From assembly GCA_012837715.1 (NCBI GenBank), contig DUQR01000045.1:62001-126000 (forward strand): a DNA stretch of 64,000 nucleotides. Direction: 5' to 3'. Below, one piece after another: positions 11,987 through 17,760 of the stretch. Within the stretch, counting starts at the first letter, position 1, and each line of letters starts with the position of its first letter. This DNA comes from Bacillota bacterium (GTDB lineage: Bacteria > Bacillota > UBA4882 > UBA10575). The position numbers were made by a program, and so were the translations under genes. The notes below the pieces were generated by a model. The model did not search any database. It saw nothing but the letters and a program-made list of their open reading frames with translations, and was not told the DNA's origin.

Positions 11987-13306
11987 GTGAATTATTTAAC
12001 GTTAGACCGCAATACGCTACTTGCTCTGGAACAACAATTAACCCAAACTTATAACCACTTTAAACAGAAAAAACTTCAGCTCAATATGGCCCGGGGAAAA
12101 CCTTGTCCTGAACAACTGGACCTCTCTTCCGGGTTATTGGAAGGTCTTCAAGGAGACTACCAAGCGGAGGATGGAACCGACTGCCGTAACTACGGCGGGG
12201 TGGCAGGTCTGCCGGAAGCACGGCGTCTCTTTGCTGAATTATTGGAAGTGGAGCCGGACGAGATCATTGTCCATGGTAACTCTAGTTTGGCTTTGATGCA
12301 TGATCTCATTGCTCGGGCACTACTTCTGGGGGTAGAGGAAGGAACACCCCCCTGGAGCCGGCAACCGGTTAAGTTTCTCTGCCCTAGCCCCGGTTATGAC
12401 CGGCATTTTGCCATCTGCGAATTTTACAATATTAAGATGATCCCCGTTCCCATGCGGGAAGACGGTCCCGATCTAGATCTAATCGAAAAGTTGGTGGCGA
12501 CCGATGAATTGATCAAGGGAATCTGGTGCATCCCAAAGTATAGTAATCCAACCGGGATTACCTTTAGTGACACGGTCGTCTCCCGTTTAGCCGCGATGAA
12601 AACCAAAGCCCGAGATTTCCGGATCTTCTGGGATAATGCCTACGCCTGGCATGATCTGACTGACGAGCCGGATCAGCTGAAAAATATTCTGACCGCCTGT
12701 AAAGAAGCGGACTATCCCGATCGGGTCTATATTTTCAGTTCAACTTCGAAGATCACTTATGCCGGTGCCGGGTTGGCGATGGTTGCCTCTAGCAAGAAGA
12801 ATATCGACCGGTTAACCAAACAAATGTCGATTCAGACCATCGGGCCCAACAAACTAAACCAACTGGCCCATGTCCGTTTCTTCAAAAACGCCCACAATTT
12901 ACGGCTGCATATGCAAAAGCAAGCTGCCCTGATTCGACCCAAATTCCAGCTGGTTTTCGATCTTTTGGATGCCGAATTGGGGGATAAAGGGATTGCCACT
13001 TGGAGCCGACCCCGGGGTGGGTATTTTATTAGTTTGAACACCCTACCCGGTTGTGCCAAAGAAGTCGTACGCCGGGCCGCAGAAGCAGGTGTCGTGCTCA
13101 CTAATGCGGGAGCTACTTTTCCTTACGGTCTTGATCCGGAAGACCAAAATATCCGGATTGCCCCGACCTATCCTCCGCTGGCCGAACTAAAAACCGCCCT
13201 GGAACTATTCACCGTCTGTGTCCAGCTGGTCAGTATCGAAAAAATTCTTCAAGATCGTAAGCTCCTTACGGACAACTTTTACCAAAAGCAAGCCCAAATC
13301 GGTTAA
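11987..13306 (+). CDS. PLP-dependent class I aminotransferase, aspartate aminotransferase-like
   Basis: 439 aa fold-type I enzyme. N-M-A-R-G-K-P near residue 34, S-P-G-Y-D-R-H near 133, N-P-T-G near 188, W-D-N-A-Y-A-W-H near 217 and S-S-T-S-K-I-T near 250 (PLP lysine) are visible. The arrangement matches the pfam Asp_aminotransf (MsAT-type) subgroup common in Clostridia, likely cytosolic transfer between aspartate and 2-oxoglutarate; substrate specificity is inferred. GTG 11987 follows GGGG by about 8 nt. Transcribed alone from its own promoter. The stop codon TAA forms the first bases of palindromic element A, and a terminator follows. Confidence 0.85.
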   Translation: MNYLTLDRNTLLALEQQLTQTYNHFKQKKLQLNMARGKPCPEQLDLSSGLLEGLQGDYQAEDGTDCRNYGGVAGLPEARRLFAELLEVEPDEIIVHGNSSLALMHDLIARALLLGVEEGTPPWSRQPVKFLCPSPGYDRHFAICEFYNIKMIPVPMREDGPDLDLIEKLVATDELIKGIWCIPKYSNPTGITFSDTVVSRLAAMKTKARDFRIFWDNAYAWHDLTDEPDQLKNILTACKEADYPDRVYIFSSTSKITYAGAGLAMVASSKKNIDRLTKQMSIQTIGPNKLNQLAHVRFFKNAHNLRLHMQKQAALIRPKFQLVFDLLDAELGDKGIATWSRPRGGYFISLNTLPGCAKEVVRRAAEAGVVLTNAGATFPYGLDPEDQNIRIAPTYPPLAELKTALELFTVCVQLVSIEKILQDRKLLTDNFYQKQAQIG

Positions 13307-13425
13307 GGCTTTTTGCGTTGTTCTTTATTTTAACAATTCCAATACAATATACTGATAGCCTGATTTAGGTTGTACCCTATATATTGTATGGAATTCATTT
13401 TATGGATTACAACGCAAAAAGCTTA
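13304..13425. repeat. Palindromic element, long form (copy A)
   Basis: 122 bp. The ends TAAGGCTTTTTGCGTTGT and ACAACGCAAAAAGCTTA are inverted repeats. An inner stem pairs AATTCCAATACAATATA with TATATTGTATGGAATT around a TGATTTAGG loop region, so the whole element could fold into one long hairpin. The left end includes the aminotransferase TAA stop. TA dinucleotides flank both termini, which is compatible with a TA target duplication as in IS630/mariner-type MITEs. Clearly homologous to copy B at 59951-60070. Confidence 0.8.
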
Positions 13426-13429
13426 GTTT

Positions 13430-13459
13430 AAACCAGTGCGACGCTGGTTTATTTTTTTT
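13430..13459 (+). terminator. Intrinsic terminator after the aminotransferase gene
   Basis: AAACCAG/CTGGTTT stem with a 7-nt loop, followed by ATTTTTTTT on the plus strand. It overlaps the last codons of the convergent DUF445 gene and may also stop transcription arriving from that side. Confidence 0.75.
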
Positions 13460-14567
13460 CTACTGTCCGGTGGTAAATCGCCCACAGGATGAGACCGCCG
13501 AGGAGAAAAACCGGGCGTAAAATCGGATAGAGAATAGCAAGCCCAACTAAAAAGCCAAAAATACCACCGGACGTCTGGATAAAAACCAGTTCATCCATGA
13601 TATTGGAGGTAAGTAACCGTTCCAGGGCAGTTGGGTCCATCTTTGCTAACTGTCCCTGGATCACGTTTTGGAAATCAATCCTCCGTAGCCCATCGGTAAT
13701 TAGTTCGGTAGCAAGAGGTTCAACCGTTTCGGCTTCCGCTTCCAGTTTGGCCGGGAGGCTCTCTAGATAAACCAGGATCTGGGGGGTTAAATAATCCAGT
13801 CGTTCGGGAAGTTCCGCCAAGATCGCCCAGACCTTTTTCCGGAAAGCCGTTCCCCACAGATCTTTGGTCCACTCGAGCACTTTACCGCCGAAGCCAGACC
13901 CGTTCCAGTCTTCAATGATGGCCTCAAGGTACCGATCCAACTGGGCTTTCGTCCGCGGGTCGCTCAAAATCGTCGCCAATAGATTAGCAATTAGCTCCTC
14001 AAAATCACTGCGGAATTCGGGGTCCTTAATTACTTCGTCCAAGGCCTGGGCAAGTCCAGTCGTTAATTTTGTCAACACGCTTTGATCGGACAGATAGTTC
14101 CGGATGATCTCCGGTGAAATCACTGCGGATTGGAGCCCTGCGGCTAAACTGGAGATCAAATTTTCCCGCCGTGCATGGATTAACCCCCACCAAACCGCAT
14201 TTTGGCGCTGGGGATGAAAGAGCATCTTAATTGCCAATAAATTGGTCCAGTAACCGACGACCGCCGGTCCTAGGACCGCAACTAAAGGCTTACTATAACG
14301 CTGAATGGGGGCCAGAAACGCCGACAACAAGAAGAATTCCAAGATAAATTCCAGGAATAACCAACCCGCCAGAAGAATCCCTGCCCAGAACAACGGATAA
14401 TTAAGCAGATTTAAAACCTTGGCGATTTGGAGGGAAATGGCAACTTGGTCCTCCCTTCTCTCCTCTGTTTTTTCTCCAACCTCGACCGGGCTGAACTGTT
14501 GCCGGAGGGTGGTTTTCAGCTTGGCTAACCATTTATGCAAAAATTTATTTCCTGTCGAAAACGGCAT
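13449..14567 (-). CDS. DUF445-family membrane protein
   Basis: 372 aa. Hydrophobic segments lie at about residues 57-90 and 95-115, with the DUF445 hallmark Y-W-T-N-L-L-A-I-K-M-L-F-H-P and then R-R-E-N-L-I near 125-155. A long helical middle region and a C-terminal pair of hydrophobic segments (about 325-365) follow. The family includes B. subtilis YheB; its molecular function is unknown. ATG 14567 is preceded by AAAGGAG. Single gene, convergent with the aminotransferase and divergent from the aspartate kinase gene. Confidence 0.8.
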   Translation of the reverse strand: MPFSTGNKFLHKWLAKLKTTLRQQFSPVEVGEKTEERREDQVAISLQIAKVLNLLNYPLFWAGILLAGWLFLEFILEFFLLSAFLAPIQRYSKPLVAVLGPAVVGYWTNLLAIKMLFHPQRQNAVWWGLIHARRENLISSLAAGLQSAVISPEIIRNYLSDQSVLTKLTTGLAQALDEVIKDPEFRSDFEELIANLLATILSDPRTKAQLDRYLEAIIEDWNGSGFGGKVLEWTKDLWGTAFRKKVWAILAELPERLDYLTPQILVYLESLPAKLEAEAETVEPLATELITDGLRRIDFQNVIQGQLAKMDPTALERLLTSNIMDELVFIQTSGGIFGFLVGLAILYPILRPVFLLGGLILWAIYHRTVEKK

Positions 14568-14810
14568 TTTCTTGTCGTCTCCTTTTGGGATAAACTATCC
14601 GCATCCGGTTCTTTTTTTATCATTCCATAAATCCTCTCCCCTCCCTGCTCTTCTTTAGAAGTTGGTTTTAAAATTATTAAATATAAGTAAAGAAGAAGGC
14701 GTTAAAATTTTTACGCCTAATATCTTTTCAATAGCTTTTAACAAGTTGCGATCCCCTAGATCAAGAACTTTTCCCCAAACTTGACTAGGAATGGTATGAG
14801 GAGGAGACAA

Positions 14811-16136
14811 ATGCGTACAGTGGTTGCAAAATTCGGTGGATCTTCTTTATCTGAAGCCGCCCAGTTCCGGAAGGTCCGGGCGATCGTGGAGGCGGATCCG
14901 AACCGCCGCTATATCATCCCTTCTGCACCTGGAAAAAGAGATAAAAACGATTATAAAATTACGGATTTATTGTATAAATGTCAAACCTTAGCCCAAGAGC
15001 AGCGTCCCTTCGGGGATGTTTTTGAGGTAATCAAAGACCGGTACCGCTCAATCTGTGACGAACTGGGCTTATCTCTGGAGCTCGAATCGGAATTTGCCAC
15101 CATCGCCCGAACAATCGCCGCCGGTGTCCCGGCCGACTATGCAGCCAGCCGGGGAGAATACCTCAACGGGATAATCCTTGCTGCTTATTTGAACTTTCCT
15201 TTTCTGGACCCGGCAACGCTTATTTTCTTTGACCAACAAGGCCACTTTGACGGAGAAAAAACCCAGTCCGTCCTGAACCGGGAATTAGCCCACTACCATC
15301 AAGCGGTAATTCCCGGATTTTACGGGTCCACCCCCGCCGGGCAGATCCAAACCTTTTCCCGGGGCGGATCCGATATTACCGGAGCAATCGTAGCCAAAGG
15401 GGTCCAAGCCGACCTCTACGAGAACTGGACCGATGTCTCCGGCTTTCTCATGGCCGATCCGCGGATTGTAAGGAACCCGAAACCGATCCGGGAAATCACC
15501 TACCGCGAACTCAGAGAGCTGGCCTACATGGGTGCTTCTGTGATGCACGAAGAAGCCATCTTCCCCGTACGGGAAGGAAAAATCCCGATTAATATTAAAA
15601 ATACGAATGATCCGGATGACCCGGGCACTTTGATTGTCAAAGATAACGGAAACATCAGAGTTCCAGGATCTATTACCGGAATTGCCGGCCGTAAAGGTTT
15701 TACCATCATTGCCATTGAAAAAACACTAATGCATTCTGAACTGGGCTTTGGCCGGAAACTGCTCTCGGTCATTGAAGACCATGGGATCTCCTTTGAACAT
15801 ATGCCTTCAGGGATCGATACTATTTCCCTGGTCATTTCCGACCAACAACTGAATAACAAATTGGAAAAAGTCCTAGTCGACATCGACCGCGTCTGCCATC
15901 CCGATTCCATAGAGGTCTTCCATGATATTGCCTTGATCGCCACCGTAGGTTTGGGTATGGCTTACACCCCAGGCATCGCGGCCAAACTCTTTACCGCCCT
16001 CGCGGGTATTAATGTCCGCATGATCGATCAAGGTTCCAGTGAGATTAATATAATCGTTGGCCTTGAAAACAAAGATTTTGAGGAAGCCGTTCGTCGGATC
16101 TATCGGGCTTTTGTCTCTCCCGATCCGGATGAATGA
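14811..16136 (+). CDS. Aspartate kinase
   Basis: 441 aa; phosphorylates L-aspartate in the first step of the lysine/threonine/methionine (and diaminopimelate) pathway. K-F-G-G-S-S at residues 6-11 is the kinase signature, the amino-acid kinase domain runs to about 290, and two ACT-type regulatory modules occupy about 305-440. The S-A-P-G-K-R-D-K-N-D-Y-K-I-T-D segment marks the clostridial monofunctional class. ATG 14811 lies 5 nt after GGAGGAG; upstream starts at 14781 lack support. Monocistronic, with a terminator at 16152. The 243-bp upstream gap has a small inverted repeat (GGCGT/ACGCC, about 14696-14717) but I see no lysine riboswitch. Confidence 0.92.
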   Translation: MRTVVAKFGGSSLSEAAQFRKVRAIVEADPNRRYIIPSAPGKRDKNDYKITDLLYKCQTLAQEQRPFGDVFEVIKDRYRSICDELGLSLELESEFATIARTIAAGVPADYAASRGEYLNGIILAAYLNFPFLDPATLIFFDQQGHFDGEKTQSVLNRELAHYHQAVIPGFYGSTPAGQIQTFSRGGSDITGAIVAKGVQADLYENWTDVSGFLMADPRIVRNPKPIREITYRELRELAYMGASVMHEEAIFPVREGKIPINIKNTNDPDDPGTLIVKDNGNIRVPGSITGIAGRKGFTIIAIEKTLMHSELGFGRKLLSVIEDHGISFEHMPSGIDTISLVISDQQLNNKLEKVLVDIDRVCHPDSIEVFHDIALIATVGLGMAYTPGIAAKLFTALAGINVRMIDQGSSEINIIVGLENKDFEEAVRRIYRAFVSPDPDE

Positions 16137-16252: not shown

Positions 16253-17653
16253 TTAACGGGTTACGGACGCCTGCGGGGCTCCTTTCGTCCGCCCGACAAA
16301 TGTCAAATCGGTAAGTGTGCCAAAATGCTCTTCAAAGATACGGTAATAAAGTAATTCTTCTTTGCTGTTCAACCGCGAACCATCCGGTAATCTTCTCTCC
16401 CTCCGGAAATCCTCATCACTAATGCGGTTTTCAGCATAAGCCGCCATGTGGTCTTTCACACCTGCTCCTTGCCAAAATTTTTCTTTTGGTCGCCACAGGA
16501 CTTTTTTGGGGAGTAAGTCCTCCACTGCTTTTCGTAAAACCCACTTTTCCACCGGTTCTCCATCCGCCTCTTGGTACAGTTTATATTCAACCGGAATCCT
16601 TACCGCCAACTTCACAACCGGGGGAGCCAAAAAGCCAACATACGCTTCGGTGCCATAGGCTGCCGCCGACCGATCCACCCGTTGGAGGGCAGTATTGTGT
16701 AACCGGTTGATACTGGCAATTAATTCCCCGTTTAGGCTCTCCGGCTCCAGATCTTTATAATAATCGTAGCCGGCAAATAGCTCATCCCCACCTTCACCGG
16801 AGAAAGCCGCCGGGACATAATCGGCGACCATTTTGGCGACTAGATAATGGGTTAAAGCGGAACGGATTAGCAAAGCATCAAAGGATTCCAAATGGTAAAT
16901 AACATCTGGTAAAACCTTCCATAGATCATCAACCGAATAGACCGCTTCGTGGTGGATAGAATCGATATGACGCGCCACTTCCCGGGCATACTCCAAGTCG
17001 CTAGCTCCTTCCATCCCACAGGCAAAAGTGTGTAACCGCTTTACTTGGCGTCGGGCAATTGCCGCTAAAGTACTGGAATCCACGCCCCCAGAAAGGAGGG
17101 AACCGATTGTCGTCTCCCCCTCCGTATACTGCGCGACCGCTTGCTCCAAAGCCTGACGTAACTTGGTGATCGCCTCTTGCTCATTTAGAGGCCAAACGGG
17201 AACTTCCGTTAACCCGAAAAACTGTTGGAAACCTTCCCCGGAAAGATATTTATGCCCGGGAGGAAATTCCCGAATCTTCCCGGCAATTCCTACTAGCGCT
17301 TTAACTTCTGAAGCAAAGACTAGTGTACCATCAACTCGCCCATAATAAAGGGGGGAAATGCCGAGACCATCGCGGACCAATAGGAGTTGGCCATCTTTAA
17401 TTGCCGCCAGGGCTAACGGAGAAGCGTTCTTCAACCGTCTGAGGTCACCGGAAAAGCGTCCATCCCAAACTGCAGTGTACCTCGGTTTATTAATAAAAGG
17501 TGGTTTTCCGCCTTTACGGTACACCACCCCCAATACGCCCCCTTTTTTCATAATCACTTTTTTTCCGCCAGGTCCCCGGTGGTTAATCTTTGCCAACATT
17601 TTTTCAACCAAACATTTTTCGCCTGTACGACATATACCTACAATTCCAGCCAT
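16253..17653 (-). CDS. Asparagine synthase-like protein without the catalytic N-terminal Cys
   Basis: 466 aa. Residues 1-120 form a shortened class-II glutamine amidotransferase domain (N-H-R-G-P-G near 24, R-D-G-L-G-I-S-P-L-Y-Y near 94); residues about 160-420 form the asparagine synthase ATP-pyrophosphatase domain with S-G-G-V-D-S-S at 188-194 and S-G-E-G-G-D-E-L-F-A-G-Y-D near 289. The nucleophile that should follow Met1 is Ala (M-A-G-I-V-G instead of M-C-G-I-V-G), and the amidotransferase domain lacks about 60-80 residues of its middle. The protein probably uses free ammonia or another acceptor, or is not an asparagine synthase. ATG 17653 lies 6 nt after AAGGAGG, so a hidden upstream Cys start is unlikely. 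Single gene. Confidence 0.82.
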   Translation of the reverse strand: MAGIVGICRTGEKCLVEKMLAKINHRGPGGKKVIMKKGGVLGVVYRKGGKPPFINKPRYTAVWDGRFSGDLRRLKNASPLALAAIKDGQLLLVRDGLGISPLYYGRVDGTLVFASEVKALVGIAGKIREFPPGHKYLSGEGFQQFFGLTEVPVWPLNEQEAITKLRQALEQAVAQYTEGETTIGSLLSGGVDSSTLAAIARRQVKRLHTFACGMEGASDLEYAREVARHIDSIHHEAVYSVDDLWKVLPDVIYHLESFDALLIRSALTHYLVAKMVADYVPAAFSGEGGDELFAGYDYYKDLEPESLNGELIASINRLHNTALQRVDRSAAAYGTEAYVGFLAPPVVKLAVRIPVEYKLYQEADGEPVEKWVLRKAVEDLLPKKVLWRPKEKFWQGAGVKDHMAAYAENRISDEDFRRERRLPDGSRLNSKEELLYYRIFEEHFGTLTDLTFVGRTKGAPQASVTR

Positions 17654-17760
17654 TCCAACCTCCTTCAAAACTATCCTCTGCTTTTTTCTCTTTCTCTTAA
17701 CAATCTCTACTCCTTTAGATCCTTCCTTATTGGCTCCTGGTTTTCCTTTTTTATTTTGAA

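Follow-up and report, generated by a model that had tools for sequence, protein, structure and literature searches.

Beta-lactam synthetase (1jgt) and the carbapenam synthetase CarA (1q15) have the fold and the adenylating C-terminal domain of asparagine synthetase B (AsnB) together with an N-terminal domain lacking the catalytic cysteine, and in beta-lactam synthetase a tyrosine replaces E348 (E. coli AsnB numbering, Cys = 1) to form a Tyr-Glu dyad. Another AsnB relative, AsnO, belongs to the pathway of the small-molecule osmolyte N-acetylglutaminylglutamine amide, as stated in excerpts of PMC8070244. The nitrile synthetase PesC of the nitrilobacillins is presented in parts of PMC13060819 as an asparagine synthetase-like enzyme with a new outcome, which can use ammonia. 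For human asparagine synthetase (ASNS), passages of PMC6748925 place the glutamine site at R48, V52, N74, G75, E76 and D96, locate E414 and R416 where the two domains meet, with Arg-416 beside an inter-domain chloride site, and count D400 among the members of a network at the synthetase site.

In this study, we analyzed an AsnB-like gene in a stretch of 64,000 nucleotides from a Bacillota bacterium (hereafter the window). The gene (16253..17653, minus strand) codes for a Cys-less AsnB-type synthetase of 466 amino acids, here called P0001, and was identified from its open reading frame (ORF), Pfam and NCBI models and an AlphaFold model. A ribosome-binding site AAGGAGG (17659..17665, minus strand) is located five bases ahead of the ATG and sets the start as proposed in the sequence-only reading; the upstream TTG start suggested by the ORF finder (17668) was rejected, as it would precede this site. 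Read on the minus strand from 17653 to 16253, the gene begins with ATG GCT GGA ATT GT.. and yields M-A-G-I-V-G, so that the start codon is followed by an Ala codon replacing the catalytic Cys (17648..17653), and at least two base changes would be needed to turn GCT into a Cys codon (TGT/TGC). The glutaminase-type N-terminal domain (about residues 1-150; 17204..17653, edge approximate) is decayed and about 46 residues shorter than that of E. coli AsnB, the PP-loop Ser being residue 188 in P0001 versus 234 in E. coli AsnB, and Pfam GATase_7 is matched only in its final third (model 81-122 of 123, 33.4 bits). The adenylation site is complete: the PP-loop SGGVDS (residues 188-193; 17075..17092), SGEGGDE with the counterparts of E. 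coli E348 and D351 (residues 285-291; 16781..16801), R325 and Lys390 (E. coli K449; 16484..16486), all on the minus strand, are intact. Thereby, the alanine, the shortened amidotransferase domain and the intact ATP-pyrophosphatase site noted in the sequence-only reading were all recovered.

The AlphaFold model (mean pLDDT 94.5) is confident and resembles E. coli AsnB (1ct9) most closely, sharing its overall fold (TM by query 0.86), and P0001 has the PP-loop, E348, D351, R387 and K449 in common with E. coli AsnB and human ASNS. Beta-lactam synthetase and CarA are also among the fold matches, at 17-21% identity to P0001. Asn_synthase (PF00733) was matched with 214.6 bits, above the Pfam gathering score of 21. 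P0001 remained below the curated NCBI cut-offs of TIGR01536 (233.2 bits; cut-off 267.1) and PRK09431 (357 bits; cut-off 499), and also below those of the AsnO model TIGR03104 (127.4 bits; cut-off 570.1), whose pathway has different partner genes, and of the lasso peptide cyclase model NF033535 (92.4 bits; cut-off 525); PF03590, the AsnA domain, was not matched in P0001. A rough NG86 comparison with the genus relatives L036, L037 and L039 gave dN/dS values of 0.06-0.09, synonymous sites being saturated against the more distant L042 and L043. By these values the gene is under strong purifying selection, which argues for function.

The P0001 gene was found in all eight genomes of the genus and in 12 of the 16 genomes of the family, and in these 12 family orthologues the residue after Met is Ala (seven) or Ser (five), never Cys. 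A scan of GTDB contigs for relatives, of which the best 80 of 131 were kept, gave no Cys at residue 1 either (0/80); 78 of these homologues and P0001 were tabulated, L112 and L115 were read by eye, and at L055, L092, L095 and L111 the start codon itself is ambiguous. Record titles, which may be wrong for MAGs, assign the loci among the best 80 of 131 to Chloroflexota (Anaerolineales, Thermoflexales), Bathyarchaeota, Asgard, Thorarchaeota, Aminicenantes, Bacteroidetes, Armatimonadetes, Planctomycetes, Verrucomicrobia and others. The Cys-less orthologues, the purifying selection and the ribosome site rule out in practice a wrong start or a sequencing error hiding a Cys, for which the sequence-only reading had allowed, and the homologues across many phyla rule out a lineage-specific mutation as source of the loss. 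As predicted proteins, the Cys-less AsnB-like sequences form a large family across many bacterial and archaeal phyla, which that reading had missed.

For the phylogeny of this family, a full-length tree was replaced by trees of the synthetase domain only, because the columns of the Cys trait itself would shape the former. The alignment of Cys-less proteins comprised P0001 and 64 of the 80 loci (best 80 of 131), leaving out 14 near-copies, L112 and L115, which were also left out of the trees. In the synthetase-domain tree, 72 Cys-less rows formed one clade (SH-aLRT 98), and in a more careful tree, in which the main clade was thinned and three rows were added, the 46 Cys-less rows again formed one clade (support 100/95). 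Mapping the Cys/Cys-less label on the careful tree required five changes, four of them forced by starred branches. Cys-less rows outside the main clade are L136, L241, L023 and L245, each from a single genome and each of which could be a start-site or assembly slip. L241 and L245 are apparently independent losses in AsnB genes adjoining a gene for a B12-binding protein. Beside the main clade, the synthetase-domain tree placed the Cys-bearing L256, L133, L020 and L022 (support 88); the careful tree leaves this grouping open, so that the sister of the Cys-less clade is not firmly placed. Thus, the phylogeny called for in the sequence-only reading puts most Cys-less proteins in one multi-phylum clade, and the glutaminase half was lost once deeply and apparently about four more times among close relatives.

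The residues lost and kept were surveyed in 79 clade members (78 of the best 80 of 131 relatives plus P0001). Residue 1 is Ala in 43 of these members, Ser in 20, Thr in seven, Gly in six, Pro in two and Ile in one. As far as the uncertain alignment of the decayed N-terminal region allows, N74 and D98 are retained in none of these 79 and E76 in six, and the position of R49 is mostly occupied by Trp (49) or Tyr (13); P0001 itself, under the same uncertainty, has Y, D, G, R and a deletion at R49, N74, G75, E76 and D98. In contrast to E. coli AsnB and human ASNS, the Cys-less clade thus lacks the nucleophile, N74 and D98. R400 is kept in only three of the 79 members and is otherwise mostly His, Tyr or Phe, P0001 having kept E398 and carrying Tyr at R400. 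Since E398 and R400 align in our alignment with human E414 and R416, glutamine-site and inter-domain residues were lost alike, indicating that the glutaminase and its coupling to the synthetase site decayed together in the Cys-less clade. A change of substrate as explanation for the loss of R400 was dropped, given the position of the aligned human Arg-416 at the inter-domain chloride site (in the passages of PMC6748925 used), and an altered aspartate site deduced from T321/T322 alone was dropped as well, Cys-bearing relatives having the same change.

All 79 members (from the best 80 of 131) are invariant at S234, G235, G236, D238, S239, D279, R324, E348, D351, R387 and K449. With neither the nucleophile nor the glutamine-binding residues left, their loop largely gone and the adenylation site kept, P0001 is predicted to be a glutaminase-dead representative of the AsnB fold of the E. 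coli type and, on its sequence, cannot be a standard glutamine-dependent AsnB. That P0001 might be a catalytically inactive or regulatory relative fits with one active site being clearly dead, but is very improbable in view of the invariant adenylation residues in 79/79 members (best 80 of 131) and the strong purifying selection. One segment of the synthetase domain differs from E. coli AsnB: the Cys-less clade and Cys-bearing relatives beside the opine/B12 gene pair described below have LHNT[N/A]LQRVD, P0001 having LHNTALQRVDR with Trp at 453, versus LHMYDCARANK in E. coli. The position of E. coli D384, which aligned here with human D400 of the synthetase-site network (PMC6748925, same passages), is first Asn and then Ala. 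As some other canonical AsnB rows have the Asn form, the segment marks a wider subfamily; it would allow for a substrate that is not aspartate but proves nothing.

The genes around the Cys-less loci were surveyed at 71 of the 80 loci (best 80 of 131), leaving out the near-copies L037-L041 as well as L080, L083, L084 and L108, for which no focal ORF was called; as the simple ORF caller chose antisense frames at some GC-rich loci, partner counts there are lower bounds. In at least 35 of these 71 loci, a gene for a B12-binding protein of about 550 amino acids was near, in every case on the strand of the focal gene; an opine dehydrogenase gene was near in at least 31 of these 71. The closest solved relative of the opine dehydrogenase is N-(1-D-carboxylethyl)-L-norvaline dehydrogenase (1bg6; 2.4e-70), and that of the B12 protein is glutamate mutase (1cb7_B; E 2.5e-15), from which it differs in that a single fused chain carries both the B12 domain and the barrel. 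The model of the B12 protein (mean pLDDT 87) has a glutamate-mutase-type fold, its barrel gave no Pfam match, and 23 of the 35 proteins were included in an alignment. A D-glutamate-cyclase-like gene (PF14336 in L052) lies immediately upstream in at least six of the 71 loci (best 80 of 131). Among 33 genomes without the B12 gene at the locus, 26 carry a relative elsewhere (E < 1e-30; 19 full, one partial at a contig end and six diverged), while in the remaining seven no more than a fragment, if anything, was found. A cultured strain, Bellilinea caldifistulae GOMI-1, has both the Cys-less gene (L049) and a B12 gene in its genome. Side observations around the pair include a PTS EIIA type 2 domain in front of the opine dehydrogenase, as if under phosphotransfer control, at L112:2313-3929 (PF00359 match) and L079:2439-4127 (by eye), and genes of TldD/PmbA-type peptidases after the pair in L254 and L255 (Pfam run on L255 only; genomes of L075 and L061, titled Aminicenantes).

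Among 398 sampled genomes of the window phylum, 49 had an AsnB-like protein (1e-60), 85 the B12 protein (1e-30) and 32 both (Fisher p 7e-13), or 25 both without the window family (p 5e-10), both tests ignoring relatedness; 53 of the 85 B12-bearing genomes had no AsnB match at 1e-60. The two genes are adjacent by coordinates in nine of the 25 co-occurring genomes, the AsnB bearing Cys in G016, G194, G213, G273, G328, G357 and G398 and lacking it in G364 and G388; in G429, the genome of L083 (titled Armatimonadetes), a Cys-bearing AsnB also adjoins the opine dehydrogenase. The Cys-bearing relatives beside the pair retain the glutaminase motifs. Glutamine-type as well as Cys-less enzymes thus serve the opine/B12 pathway, which would favor ammonia as nucleophile in the latter.

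In the window genome, the opine/B12 pair (G000:C7:30503-33192) is unlinked from the P0001 gene, so that assignment to the pathway rests there on homology and the presence of the pair elsewhere. In the other carriers of the window family, too, the gene does not adjoin the pair. The pair was found in 15 of the 16 family genomes, including all four without the P0001 gene; hence it does not need P0001, and co-occurrence within the family is not diagnostic. In G006, which has the P0001 gene, neither opine dehydrogenase nor B12 partner was found. Within the family (L188-L199, e.g. G000:C7:23000-42000), the pair stands directly upstream of an operon named by eye as V-type ATPase-like. The P0001 gene itself adjoins genes for an aspartate aminotransferase Ic, a DUF445 protein and an aspartate kinase (11987-16136 of the window), an order conserved in L036-L041 (genus) and different in L042-L045. 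Peptidoglycan amidation, considered on account of a MurD neighbor, was not favored, as MurD is adjacent in L036-L041 only, not in L042-L045, and family members occur in MAGs titled archaeal.

Formation of asparagine from aspartate, ATP and NH3, as a second or back-up route, would agree with the adenylation residues invariant in 79/79 members (best 80 of 131), with E. coli AsnB as nearest fold and with the ability of canonical asparagine synthetases to use ammonia (stated in parts of PMC13060819). An asparaginyl-tRNA synthetase (AsnRS) was found in all 16 family genomes and thus in all 12 carriers of the P0001 gene. AsnA was found in 13 family genomes, 12 of which have it near AsnRS on the same contig. 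G009-G011 have the P0001 gene and AsnRS, and neither AsnA nor a canonical AsnB was found in them; there, the gene could act as an asparagine synthetase. Against this function stand the AsnA already present in nine of the 12 carriers, the scores below the NCBI asparagine-synthase cut-offs, the altered LHNTALQRVD segment and the linkage to the opine/B12 pair, so that we consider it unlikely. The search for another asnB or asnA, proposed in the sequence-only reading, revealed a separate AsnA on contig C23 of the window genome in addition to AsnRS, and no second strong PF00733 match. Routine asparagine synthesis is therefore an unlikely job for P0001 in this genome. A frame with LPLSGGYDS, judged by eye to be distantly AsnB-like, occurs at C3:13655-14404 of the window genome (L003), with similar frames in G014 and G015, and L004 was rejected as another AsnB since it looks by eye like an NAD synthetase.

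We favor, with moderate confidence, that P0001 is a glutaminase-dead synthetase of the opine/B12 pathway. It would activate a carboxylate of an amino-acid-derived intermediate (opine-like or 3-methylaspartate-like) as acyl-AMP and amidate it, taking the nitrogen from free ammonia rather than from glutamine; this would be a single step in an uncharacterized pathway. In the sequence-only reading, P0001 was an ammonia-dependent enzyme or a specialized amide-forming activity rather than a standard AsnB: the non-standard character held, and of the two options specialized amide formation fits the context better than an ammonia-dependent asparagine synthetase because nine of the 12 family carriers also have AsnA; the direction was right, and the opine/B12 context had been overlooked. 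Alternatively, the activated carboxylate could be joined without ammonia to an amine, either one within the substrate or one on a second molecule, as Cys-less AsnB-fold enzymes such as 1jgt and 1q15 do. N-carboxyalkyl amino acids of the opine type would be similar to the substrates of these enzymes, and ATP-grasp ligases occur near some opine/B12 pairs; but E348, a Tyr in beta-lactam synthetase, is kept in 79/79 members (best 80 of 131), and the Cys-bearing relatives at the same pair keep glutaminase motifs suiting ammonia transfer, which makes such a ligation improbable. The ATP-grasp genes, D-Ala-D-Ala-ligase-like and possibly encoding an alternative ligase, adjoin the pair in L251, L252, L258 and L263 (Pfam run on L252 and L258). 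PesC differs from P0001 in using glutamine and acting on a RiPP peptide, as described in parts of PMC13060819.

For the product of the favored amidation, an amide osmolyte is our guess, based on recurrent neighbors and the known osmolyte pathway with an AsnB relative. MscS-type genes account for 11 of 525 neighbor ORFs near Cys-less loci (at least 11 of the 71 loci from the best 80 of 131) versus one of 782 in the surroundings of other opine/B12 pairs, in a loose comparison of related loci, and in L077 and L101 they lie within the gene set itself; amino-acid permeases (at least six) and MarC (at least four) also recur in these 71 loci (best 80 of 131). A more far-reaching and rather doubtful proposal would be a bacterial and archaeal pathway in which the opine dehydrogenase forms an N-(carboxyalkyl) amino acid, the fused B12 enzyme rearranges its skeleton or moves the amino group, and an AsnB descendant, whose glutaminase was repeatedly lost, forms a lactam or amide. 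What results would be a new class of compatible solutes, released in some genomes via adjacent MscS-type channels.

The AsnB fold and the adenylation chemistry are known; as judged from the open-access literature, the dismantling of the glutaminase across such a broad clade and the partners of this enzyme are apparently new. No description of the gene set of opine dehydrogenase, B12 enzyme and Cys-less AsnB was found in the open-access literature, subscription journals being mostly outside the search. Many genes that would be labelled "asparagine synthase" in a family search probably have another job, and such Cys-less AsnB-like genes can mislead genome-based predictions of amino-acid needs. 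The synthetase, the opine dehydrogenase and the glutamate-mutase-like B12 enzyme represent a directly testable trio common to bacteria and archaea, and the Cys-less clade is a natural experiment on how a channelling amidotransferase loses the second of its active sites.
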